A DNA stretch of 45,187 nucleotides from an uncultured bacterium (lineage in GTDB: Bacteria; Cyanobacteriota; Vampirovibrionia; Gastranaerophilales; Gastranaerophilaceae): NCBI GenBank assembly GCA_949299935.1, contig CASGCE010000011.1:1-45187 (forward strand), read 5' to 3'. This document shows, piece after piece, positions 1 through 44,461 of the stretch. The notes under the pieces were generated by a model, which searched no databases, was not told where the DNA came from, and was given only the letters and a program-made list of their open reading frames with translations. Positions within the stretch are counted from its first letter, which is position 1. Each line of letters begins with the position of its first letter. The position numbers and the translations under genes are program-made.

Positions 1-1110
1 GATAAATTCTTATCTGACGAAAAGTTACATAACAATGAAAATTTGGCTGCTATTTTTTGTGATATTCTAGCTTCCACAGACACACCCGAACGAGTTAGAT
101 TGGTGGATAAATTGCTATTTGACGAAAAATTGTATAACAATAAGAATTTGATTAACGATTTTAGTGACATTCTATATCACACTAGCACTTCTGAACAATT
201 TAGATTGGTGGATAAACTGTTATCTGATGAAAAATTATATAACAACGAGAATTTAGTTAACGAGTTTGTTGGCATTCTGTATTATACCAACACTTCTGAA
301 AAATTTAAATGGGTAAATAAATTCCTAACTGATGAAAAGCAAAAGCTATATAATAATGGAGATTTTGCTGGTGTTTTGAGTGATATTCTATGTTTCACTA
401 ACACTTCCGAACGAGCTAAATTTGCGAATAAATTCTTATCTGATGAAAAATTATATAACAATGAAAATTTAGTTAAGAGACTTATTGACATCTTATCTGA
501 CACCGAAACTTCCGAAAATGCACAAATAAGAATTAATTTGATGGATAAATTCCTATCGGATGAAAGATTATACAACAATGAGAATTTAGTTGTTAATTTT
601 GGTGACATTCTATATGACACCAAAATTTATGAAGATGCACGAAGAAAAATTAATTTGATAGATAAATTTCTATCGGATGAAAAATTGTATAACAATGAAA
701 ATTTAGTCAAAAGGTTTGGTGACATTCTATATGACACCAAAACTTATGAAAATGCACAAATAAGAATTAATTTGATGGATAAATTCCTATCGGATGAAAG
801 ATTATACAACAATGAAAATTTAATTAACAAGTTTGTTGATATTCTAGTTTACCCCGACACACCCGAACGGTTAGAATTGGTAAATAAATTGTTATCGGAT
901 GAAAAAATTATATAACAATAAGAATTTAGTTAACATGTTTTGTAACATTCTAAGTTACACTAACACTTTCGCACGATTTGAATTGGTAAATAAATTGCTA
1001 TCTGATAAAAAGTTGTATAACAATGAAAATTTAGTAAAGAATTTTTGTAATATTCTACATAACACTAACATCTGCGAAGGTGCACAAATAAAAATTAATT
1101 TGCTGTACAA
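1..1110 (+). repeat. About ten tandem coding repeats of 105 or 117 bp
   Basis: DNA repeats underlie the protein repeats. Two lengths alternate: units with a four-residue insertion (QIRINL type, near 521-540, 641-660, 761-780 and 1082-1101) and units without. The stretches near 530-600 and 770-830 are almost identical, which suggests recent duplication or gene conversion within the array. Confidence 0.8.
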
Positions 1111-12275: not shown

Positions 12276-12317
12276 ATGAGATTAAGAGAAGCTAACGGGG
12301 GGGGGCGACTCCTCTAA
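12276..12317 (+). CDS. Leader ORF of pilin A with G9 tract
   Basis: Thirteen codons, MRLREANGGGRLL, then TAA, after a strong Shine-Dalgarno site. The three Gly codons are the nine-G run at 12297-12305. If the tract is read as ten G, or the ribosome slips back one base, the frame continues as ATPLSRKDKGFGLI... and runs without a stop into the pilin A frame. The same leader ending occurs before pilin B. It may be a regulatory leader or the true N-terminus of the prepilin. Confidence 0.6.
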   Translation: MRLREANGGGRLL

Positions 12318-12345
12318 GTAGAAAAGACAAGGGTTTTGGCCTAAT
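12293..12345 (+). repeat. 53-bp block shared with the pilin B leader (G-type copy 1)
   Basis: Identical to 19535-19587 except one base (G at 12339, A at 19581). It contains the G9CGACT core (12297-12310), the leader stop codon and the -35 box of promoter P2. The flanks diverge, so it is an island of conservation between two otherwise different genes. Confidence 0.9.
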
Positions 12346-12364
12346 TAGTATTATGTGCTATAAT
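12336..12364 (+). promoter_or_regulatory. Internal promoter P2 of pilin A (leaderless)
   Basis: TTGGCC (12336-12341), 17 bases, TATAAT (12359-12364), then six bases to ATG 12371. This gives pilin A a possible second, leaderless start that bypasses the G-tract leader. Confidence 0.65.
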
Positions 12365-12370
12365 TCAAAT

Positions 12371-13165
12371 ATGAAGAATTATAATTTGCGAAAAGGTTTT
12401 ACACTGGCAGAGGTATTAATTACATTGGGTATAATCGGTGTTGTTGCCGCTTTAACCATACCAACTTTGATTAGTAATTATCAGGAGAAACAAACTCTAA
12501 CCAAGTTACAAAAAACTTATTCAACATTGAAAAATGCACTGGAGTTGGGAAAAGTTGAACATGGTGATTATGACACATGGTCTTGGAATCAAATTCCGGT
12601 TACCAATGCAGAGAGAATAAAATATTTTTGGGAAACGTATGGTTTTCCAAATTTAAAAGTTGTAAAAAAATGTTTTCCGGTTTCAGATGAATGTGTCGAT
12701 ACAATGTACTTTTTATCCGGAACAAGTATTAGCAACAGTAGTACAAGAGGTGCATTTATTTTAGAGGATGGAACTTCGGTTTACACTTGGGCAAGCAGTG
12801 GAGACTTCTTCCCGCATATATTTATTTTTGTTGACTTAAACGGCAGAAATAAGCCTAATATTGTCGGAAAAGATATATTTGTGATGTACTTTTCTCCGCA
12901 AAATCCCGGTAATAAATTGGGTGAGCTCGATGAAGATGGAAACTTTGTTGATTCTGGAAAAATCATGGCTAATGCTTACGGATTAAGCTTTTATGGAGAT
13001 GTTGATAATGTAACTGTGAAAGATTTGATGAGTCCGAATTTTATCATACAAAATGTACAGGGTACAAATAATAAAATGGGTTGTTCTATTGAAAGTTTAG
13101 GTTATGTTTGCGGTGCTGCCATTAAACTGAATGGTTGGAAATTCCCTGACGGTTATCCGAGATAA
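12371..13165 (+). CDS. Prepilin-like protein A (type IV pilin/pseudopilin N-terminus)
   Basis: 264 residues from ATG 12371; an upstream in-frame ATG at 12353 is also possible. The class III signal is RKG^FTLAEVLITLGIIGVVAA: a short basic leader, Gly at -1, Phe at +1, Glu at +5, then a hydrophobic helix that drives assembly in type II secretion or type IV pilus systems. A prepilin peptidase would cut after Gly. The remaining globular domain ends with Cys-containing sequence and the motif LNGWKFPDGYPR, related to the end of pilins C and D. No pilus assembly genes are nearby, so it is an orphan minor pilin or surface protein. A promoter, leader ORF and G9 tract precede it. Confidence 0.88.
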   Translation: MKNYNLRKGFTLAEVLITLGIIGVVAALTIPTLISNYQEKQTLTKLQKTYSTLKNALELGKVEHGDYDTWSWNQIPVTNAERIKYFWETYGFPNLKVVKKCFPVSDECVDTMYFLSGTSISNSSTRGAFILEDGTSVYTWASSGDFFPHIFIFVDLNGRNKPNIVGKDIFVMYFSPQNPGNKLGELDEDGNFVDSGKIMANAYGLSFYGDVDNVTVKDLMSPNFIIQNVQGTNNKMGCSIESLGYVCGAAIKLNGWKFPDGYPR

Positions 13166-19432: not shown

Positions 19433-19461
19433 AAAAAGTGCCACAAATGTGGTGCTTTTTT
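19433..19461 (+). terminator. Rho-independent terminator after the prsA-like gene
   Basis: A hairpin with nine pairs (two G-T wobbles), AAGTGCCAC / GTGGTGCTT, four-base loop, followed by T residues. Pilin B promoter P1 begins two bases later. Confidence 0.88.
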
Positions 19462-19462
19462 G

Positions 19463-19491
19463 TTGCTAAAATGATTGAATTTTGATATAAT
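19463..19491 (+). promoter_or_regulatory. Promoter P1 of pilin B leader
   Basis: TTGCTA (19463-19468), 17 bases, TATAAT (19486-19491), then AAGGAGAAGAAGG before the leader ATG at 19515. Confidence 0.72.
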
Positions 19492-19514
19492 AAGTCGCAA
19501 AGGAGAAGAAGGTT

Positions 19515-19559
19515 ATGAACATGGGAAAGAGAGATAACGGGGGGGGGCGACTCCTCTAA
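19515..19559 (+). CDS. Leader ORF of pilin B with G9 tract
   Basis: Fourteen codons, MNMGKRDNGGGRLL, then TAA. The G tract is 19539-19547, again nine bases. The -1 frame after the tract reads ATPLSRKDKGFDLIDI... and joins the pilin B frame with no stop. In the unshifted sequence the pilin frame has a TAA just before the G tract. Confidence 0.65.
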   Translation: MNMGKRDNGGGRLL

Positions 19560-20287
19560 GTAGAAAAGACAAGGGTTTTGACCTAATCGACATTGGGTGT
19601 TGTAATTTAAAACTCGGTTCAAGAAAGGGTTTTACCTTAGCGGAAGTATTAATAACGATAGGAATAATCGGTATAGTAGCGGCAATGACAATACCGACAC
19701 TTGTATCAAAATTTCAGGAAAAGGCTCTTGTGTCCCAGTTCAAGAAAACATATTCAACGTTAAATCAAGCACTGCAATTAACAAATTATGAAAATGGTGT
19801 GGAGTATAAGTGCTATACAGGACCTTACAATTCTGTTACTGCAAGTTATTATGAACGTTCTCAATGTGCAGCTTTTTGGAATGCTTTTTTAAAAGAGCTT
19901 AAATATCTTAAATATGAAGATGTCACTAGTTTACCTTATAAAAAAAAGAATCAAGTTTTAGCAGAAGGAGGGGGAGTGACAAATAATTCTTGTTCTTTCA
20001 GCCTTAATAGTGGAACCCGTAAGTATTATTTAACAGATGGCAGTATAATATATGTGAATCCTCTTGGTGATACTCAGATTTCATTGTTTATGATTGTAGA
20101 TATAAACGGAGATAAAGGTCCTAACAAATGGGGATATGATGTATTTTATCTTACTCCTACAAAGAGAAATAATGGTTCGTTTAGAATGAATGAAGGTCTT
20201 TGTGTTATTTGGGAAAAGGGCGGTAAAAGAGCCTTTAATATGCTAAACAATACTGATGAAGTCAGTAACTCATACTTTTTTGATTAA
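19515..20287 (+). CDS. Prepilin-like protein B, reachable only through a -1 shift in the leader
   Basis: The class III signal RKG^FTLAEVLITIGIIGIVAAM begins at about 19622, and the globular domain runs to 20287. No ATG, GTG or TTG precedes it in frame: the first in-frame ATG (19685) is inside the hydrophobic helix and would destroy the signal. Where the leaderless pilin A has ATG, six bases after the -10, B has CTC (19613). A complete prepilin therefore needs the leader at 19515 plus one extra base in the G9 tract, or a ribosomal -1 slip at 19539-19547. The mature part has several Cys residues but lacks the GWKF end of A, C and D. Alternatives are a dead gene or a homopolymer miscall. Confidence 0.7.
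19535..19587 (+). repeat. 53-bp block shared with the pilin A leader (G-type copy 2)
   Basis: Same block as 12293-12345 with one mismatch. The G9CGACT core is at 19539-19552. Confidence 0.9.
19578..19606 (+). promoter_or_regulatory. Internal promoter P2-like site of pilin B
   Basis: TTGACC, 17 bases, TGTAAT. It is in the same place as P2 of pilin A, but there is no start codon six bases downstream, so this copy looks degenerate. Confidence 0.4.
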
Positions 20288-35161: not shown

Positions 35162-36040
35162 TTACCACGGATGATCATCTGCGAATTTCCATCCGTCTAG
35201 TTGAAGCAGGGTGGTGCAATACAATTCGTTACCGAGGCTACCTTCAGTATCGCTGCATAATTCTAATATATAATCACGTTTATATCCTTGCCCATAAGTT
35301 TCAAGACGATTATTGCTAGCTGATAATTCGACTAAAAAGAAATCACGGCCAAGGATATTTGGTCCGGCCTTTCCATTGACATCGATGAATATCATCGGAT
35401 TTATTAAGTACGAAGTAAGTATTTCATCGGTTTCCATTTGACCATTATGGTATGAAAAAATTAATGTAACATAGTTCTGAAGTTCTACGATATAACACTT
35501 TGTATTACTGGTATAATAAGTTCTACCATCTTTAGTCTTATATCCGGAATAGCCTGCATCCTTCAGTTTTATTTTGCCATAATTTTTTGAAACCTTGAGA
35601 TATGGAATAAAGTATTTTTCTGCAAATTCTTTAACATATTGTGAACTATCATCTCCCGGTGCAATAGTTGTACCATAATTTTTTTGATAGCCCCAAGTTG
35701 CTACATCACCATATTCAACTTGAGCCATTTTAACGGCATTAGAGAGCACACTGAAAGTTTGTGAAAGTCTAGATGCAAATTCACGTTTTTGATAATTGAC
35801 GATCAAAGTCGGGATAGTCATTGCAGCGACGATGCCAATTATAGCCAAGGTAATCAATACTTCAGCTAAAGTAAAAGCTGCAAGCTTATGTAATTTTGTC
35901 ATTTTGAATATATTTCGGAATCTTGTGTTTTCAGATCCTGAACCAAGTTCAGGATGACAGATAGCGAGTTCAGAATGACATGTTTGGAGTTTAGCATGAC
36001 GTTTAAATGCAAAAAATTTCTTGAAACCATAATTCATCAT
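35162..36040 (-). CDS. Prepilin-like protein C with a long leader
   Basis: 292 residues from ATG 36040. The class III signal is unusual: KLAA^FTLAEVLITLAIIGIVAAM has Ala, not Gly, at -1, and comes after a 56-residue leader containing CHSELAICHPELGSGS, which is encoded by a dispersed repeat (see 35905-35984). The mature domain is about 95% like pilin D up to KTKDGRTY, then diverges, and ends with QLDGWKFADDHPW. A TTGACA-N17-TATAAT promoter six bases before the ATG allows leaderless expression. An upstream leader with a C9 tract is in the -1 frame relative to it. Without the Gly, processing may be reduced. Function is inferred as a minor pilin-like surface protein. Confidence 0.85.
   Translation of the reverse strand: MMNYGFKKFFAFKRHAKLQTCHSELAICHPELGSGSENTRFRNIFKMTKLHKLAAFTLAEVLITLAIIGIVAAMTIPTLIVNYQKREFASRLSQTFSVLSNAVKMAQVEYGDVATWGYQKNYGTTIAPGDDSSQYVKEFAEKYFIPYLKVSKNYGKIKLKDAGYSGYKTKDGRTYYTSNTKCYIVELQNYVTLIFSYHNGQMETDEILTSYLINPMIFIDVNGKAGPNILGRDFFLVELSASNNRLETYGQGYKRDYILELCSDTEGSLGNELYCTTLLQLDGWKFADDHPW
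35905..35984 (-). repeat. Dispersed repeat inserted in the pilin C leader region
   Basis: Minus-strand sequence TGTCATCCTGAACTTGGTTC and its surroundings match the widespread TGTCATTCTGAAC-type repeat seen in many bacterial genomes (Rickettsia-type and others). A 9-bp inverted repeat (35935-35943 and 35947-35955, ATCCTGAAC/GTTCAGGAT) lies within. The element keeps the frame open and encodes the CHSELAICHPELGSGS segment. Confidence 0.65.
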
Positions 36041-36046
36041 ACCAGA

Positions 36047-36075
36047 ATTATAGTTACAGATTAAGAATTTGTCAA
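36047..36075 (-). promoter_or_regulatory. Internal promoter P2 of pilin C (leaderless)
   Basis: Minus strand: TTGACA (36075-36070), 17 bases, TATAAT (36052-36047), six bases, ATG 36040. It matches consensus at both boxes. Confidence 0.75.
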
Positions 36076-36087
36076 TCAGATCAAAAC

Positions 36088-36156
36088 TTAAAAACAGAGC
36101 GCTTCTCGGGGGGGGGCGACTATCTGAACCGCTTTCAATACAACCTTTTTCAACAT
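36088..36156 (-). CDS. Leader ORF of pilin C with C9 tract
   Basis: 22 codons, MLKKVVLKAVQIVAPPREAL CF, then TAA, after AAGGAGAAAGG. The nine C (G on plus strand) are 36116-36108. In the -1 frame it continues PRSALFLSFDLIDKFL... for 23 codons without a stop into the ATG of pilin C. It shares KAVQIVAPP with the pilin D leader. Confidence 0.62.
   Translation of the reverse strand: MLKKVVLKAVQIVAPPREALCF
36108..36135 (-). repeat. 28-bp C-type block shared with the pilin D leader (copy 1)
   Basis: Coding strand: AAAGCGGTTCAGATAGTCG followed by nine C, identical to 44443-44416. The core is the reverse complement of the G9CGACT found before pilins A and B. Confidence 0.9.
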
Positions 36157-43667: not shown

Positions 43668-44461
43668 TTACCAAGGATGATCATCGGCAAACTTCCATCC
43701 GTCCATTTGGATTAGGGCTGTGCACTGTAAATTGTTTGATAAACTGCCCGCTGGATTTTCACTGCATTTTTCTAAAAGTATATTTCGTTTGTAGCCAGCT
43801 CCACTTGTATTTAACTTATTTTCAGTTGTTGATAGCTGTACCATAAAAAAATCACGTCCGAGAATATTGGGTCCTGTTTTTCCGTTTACATCTATGAATA
43901 TTATCGGTGCTGATATGAAATAAGTAATAACGCCATCAATTTCTGTGGTAGCTCCGTTATACGAAAAAAATAATGTACTGCCATTTTGAAGTTCTACGGT
44001 GTATCGCGTTTCGCTACTGCTAATATAAGTTCTTCCATCTTTAGTCTTGTATCCGGAATAGCCTGCATCCTTCAGTTTTATTCTGCCATAATTTTTTGAA
44101 ACCTTGAGATATGGAATAAAGTATTTTTCTGCATATTCTTGAACGTATTGTGAGTAATCGTTTCCAGGTGCAATAGTTGTACCATAATTTTTTTGATAGC
44201 CCCAAGTTGCTACATCACCATATTCAACTTGAGCCATTTTAACGGCATTAGAGAGCACACTAAAAGTTTGTGCAAGTCTTGAGGCAAATTCACGCTTTTG
44301 ATAATTGACAATCAAAGTCGGAATAGTCAAAGCTGCAACTACACCAATAATACCAAGAGTAATAAGCACTTCAGCTAATGTAAATCCCTTAAAGCCTATG
44401 CTCCAAGCGTGAGTCGGGGGGGGGCGACTATCTGAACCGCTTTTGTAGTAATCGTTTTCAT
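43668..44461 (-). CDS. Prepilin-like protein D, reachable only through a -1 shift in the leader
   Basis: The pilin frame holds FKG^FTLAEVLITLGIIGVVAA from about 44393, then a globular domain ending QMDGWKFADDHPW. No ATG, GTG or TTG precedes the signal in this frame; the first GTG (44369) codes for a Val within the hydrophobic helix. A complete prepilin requires the leader ATG at 44461 and a -1 shift or tenth C at 44424-44416, which gives KAVQIVAPPPTHAWSIGFKG before the cleavage site. The N-terminal half is about 95% like pilin C, the C-terminal half about 60%. It follows the dnaK terminator and precedes ruvC. Pseudogene or miscall are alternatives. Confidence 0.72.
44396..44461 (-). CDS. Leader ORF of pilin D with C9 tract
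   Basis: 21 codons, MKTITTKAVQIVAPPRLTLG A, then TAG, after GGAGG. The tract (44424-44416) is nine C on the coding strand. The last stretch before the tract is shared with the pilin C leader. Confidence 0.62.
   Translation of the reverse strand: MKTITTKAVQIVAPPRLTLGA
44416..44443 (-). repeat. 28-bp C-type block shared with the pilin C leader (copy 2)
   Basis: Identical to 36135-36108. Contains the fourth copy of the G9CGACT core (plus strand 44416-44429). Confidence 0.9.

Follow-up and report, generated by a model that had tools for sequence, protein, structure and literature searches.

Pilin B, a prepilin gene of an uncultured Gastranaerophilaceae bacterium, has no in-frame ATG, GTG or TTG upstream of its signal, and its dependence on the short leader open reading frame (ORF) just 5' of it is well supported by the sequence. 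Such a leader, with a tract of nine G or nine C (G9 or C9), precedes some 50 prepilin genes in this genome. These tracts most likely switch dozens of surface proteins on and off, the pilins probably being made only when the tract gains a letter. We describe here the anatomy of these loci, their reading frames and copy number, the in-frame alleles, and the intactness of and selection on the pilins, in and beyond a 45,187-nucleotide stretch of DNA (the window), in which the pilin B locus occupies positions 19515-20287 of the forward strand.

The gene preceding this locus ends in a terminator-like hairpin with a T run (approximately 19439-19463). A promoter-like TATAAT (around 19486) and the Shine-Dalgarno sequence AAAGGAGAAG, both found by reading the sequence (19476-19510), stand 5' of the leader ATG, and all of these features are on the forward strand. 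By direct and scripted reading, the leader ORF (19515-19559) has 14 codons in the 0 frame, ATG ... AAC GGG GGG GGG CGA CTC CTC TAA, encoding MNMGKRDNGGGRLL. It runs from ATG 19515 through the G9 tract (19539-19547) to a TAA at 19557-19559. Nine letters leave this frame one base out of step with the pilin, whereas ten or seven place it in frame. Pilin B is read in the -1 frame (19547-20287), which after the tract goes GCG ACT CCT CTA ... AAG GGT TTT ACC. The initial part of this frame (19547-19627) is an open leader peptide, ATPLSRKDKGFDLIDIGCCNLKLGSRK, and is followed by pilin B proper (GFTLAEVLITIGIIG..., 19628-20287). Either one added G or a -1 shift joins leader and pilin into MNMGKRDNGGGGATPLSRKDKGFDLIDIGCCNLKLGSRKGFTLAEV.

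An intact signal KGFTLAEV, with no start codon upstream in its frame and a TAA just before the G tract, had been described in the earlier note, and all of this was borne out. The type IV prepilin-like signal (K-G-F-T-L-x-E) is followed by a hydrophobic helix, with the N_methyl domain (PF07963) above the cut-off in both pilin A and pilin B. The in-frame TAA lies at 19535-19537. From there to KGFTLAEV, scripted and direct reading found no ATG, GTG or TTG, and the earliest ATG of the frame is at 19685, within the mature hydrophobic helix. ATC 19586 and ATT 19592 are the only codons of their kind 5' of the signal. An Rfam scan of the window between 11.9 and 21.0 kb gave sub-threshold matches only, and the virus contigs searched gave no match.

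Pilin A, also on the forward strand, has the same G9 cassette, with its leader ORF (MRLREANGGGRLL) at 12276-12317, the pilin in the -1 frame at 12305-13165 and the signal motif at 12395. Inside this frame, at 12339-12373, lies a promoter-like TTGAC-17-TATAAT followed by an ATG (TATAAT-TCAAAT-ATG), with the palindrome TATAATTC...GAATTATA. This ATG stands where pilin B has CTC 19613. Two further pilins, on the reverse strand, have a second leader type, ATG ... GTTCAGATAGTCG-C9, and are read in the -1 frame (35162-36156, tract 36108-36116; 43668-44461, tract 44416-44424). A nine-base tract is present in all four pilins of the window, two G9 on the forward and two C9 on the reverse strand. The G-leader motif occurs 2 times in the window, where chance would give 0.00 matches.

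In terms of copy number, a query made of leader plus signal gave 45 DNA-level matches in the 1.68 Mb genome, and a count by tract and flank gave approximately 43 copies of the G9 leader; these counts vary with the search patterns used. Runs of at least eight G, on both strands of the genome, lie nearly all within a pilin leader, with two long runs (C9:13592 and C16:155491) not placed in any. With up to three mismatches allowed, 12 of the 16 genomes in the genus carry the G9 leader, whose consensus pattern had no match in 40 other genera sampled within the family; matches are mostly within Candidatus Gastranaerophilales. Three genomes (G001, G008 and G013) have 60-120 pilin-motif matches each, a very large expansion. 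The set of G leaders comprises 185 distinct copies from 13 genomes, all sequences being metagenome-assembled consensus.

Nearly all G-leader copies have a Shine-Dalgarno sequence and an ATG, the distance from start to tract being mostly 15-39 bases and a multiple of three in approximately 95%. With nine Gs, a start preceded by a Shine-Dalgarno sequence needs one more base to reach the pilin in 142 of 148 copies. With ten, the leader is directly in frame in 25 of 28. G8 copies are off in all six cases, and one of the two G7 copies is in frame. As in contingency loci, a homopolymer near the 5' end decides the frame in both the G and the C family, on and off alleles exist (with G7, G10 and G11 alleles), and close relatives differ in tract length.

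The pilin motif lies in the -1 frame, with no stop, in 151 of the 153 copies with at least 450 bases downstream. Among leaders of the three most frequent lengths, the -1 frame has no stop in 1476 codons, against 165 and 246 stops in the other frames. The frame is kept open across the genus, with a loosely constrained peptide sequence. Amino-acid constraint on the leader was considered as proof of translation and is weak (pN/pS approximately 0.65 and 0.62 in the -1 and +1 frames), so we relied on the absence of stops instead. A 0-frame stop follows the tract in 182 of 185 copies, and in 42 of the 43 found by similarity in this genome, although most leader loci were found with patterns requiring this stop and its conservation is no independent evidence. 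Leaders of at least 100 codons with inserted repeats, and with the -1 frame open, were also found in some relatives (L045, L052, L203 and similar); these recall in-frame palindromic elements.

Tract lengths G9, G10 and G8 stand at 118:12:0 in five genomes. G8 faces G9 between relatives at 98.6% nucleotide identity and G10 faces G9 at 95.0%, close pairs of differing length being few and G8 and G10 deliberately over-sampled. Pilins with a G10 tract mostly have G9 pilins as their reciprocal best hits, and G10 does not track orthology. A fixed G10 as an inherited orthologue trait, considered for the ATGACTAGTTT group, was rejected, several members of the group being G9. In none of the approximately 185 G copies is the tract altered by a substitution that would spare a GGGGGGG heptamer, and therefore the homopolymer itself matters. 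Three loci have tracts broken by substitution (L328, C4TC4; L329, C3TC5; L102, G4TG4). L328 and L329 have a pilin frame that is off by one yet open, and these loci may be locked off or internally expressed.

The second leader family, unrelated to the G leader, has matches in 12 of 16 genomes of the genus, with nine again as the dominant tract length. Of 29 C9 copies with a frame call, in a sample picked to include odd tracts, 27 are out of frame; C10 copies are in frame in 2 of 3, and the sole C7 copy is in frame. A third leader type, found in genome G001, has G9 directly followed by TAG and the pilin in the +1 frame, a shift opposite in direction to that of the other species (L137, L141, L145, L187, L190 and L193). 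Other G001 copies have a leader frame that stops short of the pilin. Judged by their predicted frames, what all leader types share is being off at nine, not one direction of shift.

Among the 162 G-leader copies of the genus with the pilin reached in the -1 frame, 52 have no ATG, GTG or TTG between tract and motif, and 23 have GTG or TTG only. In this genome, 12 of 42 copies are start-less after the tract, pilin B among them. An internal ATG as a general explanation was rejected, as those 52 copies have none. Some relatives have a gap of only 9-12 codons, approximately, between tract and signal (e.g. ATPLSRQNKGFTLAEV), which leaves no room for another start. All 49 start-less copies whose frame could be traced as far as a stop codon are full length, and so are all 40 start-less G9 copies uncut by a contig end (at least 212 aa). 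For G9 copies, the median pN/pS of the mature pilin is approximately 0.32, in a comparison where just two pairs are both start-less, and the pilin genes are therefore not decaying. These results support the leader dependence of pilin B proposed in the earlier note, and the relaxed selection that it had named as contrary evidence was not seen.

The reading we favour, with a probability slightly better than even, is that pilin B and its relatives are slipped-strand phase-variable genes, off at G9 and on at G10. At nine Gs, ribosomes starting at the leader ATG, which is the sole conventional start of pilin B, would end at the leader's TAA and pilin B would not be made. One G added in replication (G10), or a tract of seven (G7), would give a single ORF, MNMGKRDNGGGGATPLSRKDKGF...SRKG/FTLAEV, and prepilin peptidase would cut off the leader extension of this fused prepilin. 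The tract would then act as a stochastic on/off switch, with G9 as the off state in most loci, and any one cell would produce only a few of the leader-dependent pilins, in a changing selection. From sequence we infer both this cleavage and switching at the DNA level at a rate fast enough to matter. In support, a minority of G loci is in frame at G10 in the consensus genomes. The absence of mismatch repair as further support was ruled out: MutS1 and MutL are present in 16 of 16 genomes, and slippage at a tract of just nine bases should therefore be slowed, unlike in Campylobacter jejuni. The length peak of G9, G10 and G8 is also narrower than expected of contingency loci, and has to be explained by selection for the off state or by gene conversion between copies. 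Leader variants are species-specific, which suggests that leader copies are homogenised within a genome, and this could also sharpen the length peak.

Other explanations were weighed against slipped-strand switching. That pilin B is decaying or unexpressed, or that the G run is an assembly or sequencing error, is hardly credible. Homopolymers are error-prone in principle and the organism is known from assemblies only, but the same tract length occurs in hundreds of places, in 12 genomes and several projects. Pseudogenes and sequencing errors were rejected on this recurrence, on the full length of the start-less G9 pilins and on the selection seen in G9 pilins. An internal start deserves closer attention. 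The earlier note was right that CTC 19613 occupies the site of the pilin A ATG, but this covers one leader subtype only: in this genome, 25 of 42 G leaders carry TTGAC-16..18-TATAAT with an ATG six bases on, inside a palindrome. The embedded promoter-like element is possibly a leaderless start or an operator, and pilins that have it together with the ATG, such as pilin A, might be made leaderless whatever the tract length. In L033, a TGA ahead of a G8 tract breaks the leader, and the internal promoter-like sequence and ATG are intact. Pilin B itself would have to be made leaderless from a weakened form, TTGACC-17-TGTAAT, with a non-standard start at ATT 19592, ATC 19586 or CTC 19613, which we regard as very unlikely. 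The frequency of the element, the ATG retained behind the decayed leader of L033 and the retention of the weakened form in pilin B speak for such a start. Against it, the -10 of pilin B is altered and CTC replaces ATG, relatives with simple leaders that have neither promoter nor start keep intact pilins, and an untranslated promoter region needs no such openness as the -1 frame has. Judged by these elements, the pilins appear to split into leader-dependent and leader-independent sets.

The earlier note left the site of the shift unstated, and a change of tract length in the DNA is at least as likely as recoding. Programmed recoding of the whole family, approximately 50 pilin genes in each genome across several species, by slippage of RNA polymerase or ribosome, is unlikely. 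Programmed transcriptional slippage taken separately, in which RNA polymerase would add or drop a base and a fixed fraction of the mRNA would encode the fused prepilin, is quite unlikely, and would give a low, uniform output of all pilins. It is consistent with a run of about nine identical bases of conserved length, and with the sharp peak at nine in two unrelated leaders of opposite bases. It would also account for the absence of G8, which under phase variation is as silent as G9 (12:0, two-sided p of approximately 5e-4), and it agrees with the presence of mismatch repair genes, with the 0-frame stop right 3' of the tract and with nine as a common threshold length on A/T runs (PMC1088944). 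However, the reports consulted cover A/T runs and not G/C, G10 alleles recur at approximately 9% without following phylogeny, and the search patterns themselves account for part of the 0-frame stop's conservation. Programmed -1 ribosomal frameshifting on G GGG GGG or C CCC CCC has a low probability. Both main leaders need exactly -1 at nine, the 0-frame stop lies three codons on, and homopolymer heptamers permit tandem slippage. Yet seven Gs would suffice, and none of the approximately 185 G copies combines a retained heptamer with a substitution at the first or second G, as a needed heptamer with free outside bases would allow; the G001 leaders need +1, and Rfam gave no match above threshold at the site. 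The heptamer data, the +1 frame of G001 and the existence of both G and C leaders leave slippage of the nucleic acid itself. DNA-level phase variation ranks first, at about one half, with about one third for recoding of either kind.

Switchable pilins would be a known kind of system, unusual in scale. The opa genes of Neisseria form a repertoire of paralogous surface proteins, turned on and off independently by a repeat in the removed N-terminal signal region, with pentamer repeats in about 11 genes. The per-gene design is alike here, with a G9 or C9 homopolymer and approximately 50 genes. In Bifidobacterium breve, another gut commensal, pilus genes are switched by G10/G11 replication slippage (PMC9187656). 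At bbr_0113 and bbr_1889, too, the pilus gene is broken into two ORFs by an intragenic G tract, the allele in the database being the off form, and a change in tract length fuses the ORFs (PMC9187656). Those are sortase-dependent pili from two loci with G11 and G10, whereas here we find type IV-like prepilins, approximately 50 loci, a tract of nine near the start codon, and MutS and MutL. C. jejuni, too, has numerous poly-G contingency loci in genes associated with the cell surface, most of the short tracts being G9 or G10, but in a mixed gene set and without functional mismatch repair (PMC8355987); here a single paralogous family shares a common leader cassette. In Thermus thermophilus dnaX, nine identical bases (A9) likewise place the downstream sequence in other frames, but the run is A/T and late in a housekeeping coding sequence (PMC1088944), and slippage is putative here. 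A narrow literature search, where other wording may have been used, found no paper on phase variation in Gastranaerophilales.

If this reading is true, a common and scarcely cultured gut lineage of non-photosynthetic Cyanobacteria would have a large switchable pilin repertoire, and two unrelated leader cassettes would have arrived at the same nine-base, one-base-off design. It would account for gene finders possibly splitting or truncating these pilins, and would offer dozens of parallel loci per cell for telling DNA from RNA slippage. If family-wide recoding were true instead, the output of the entire pilin repertoire could be set together by a single trans-acting condition.
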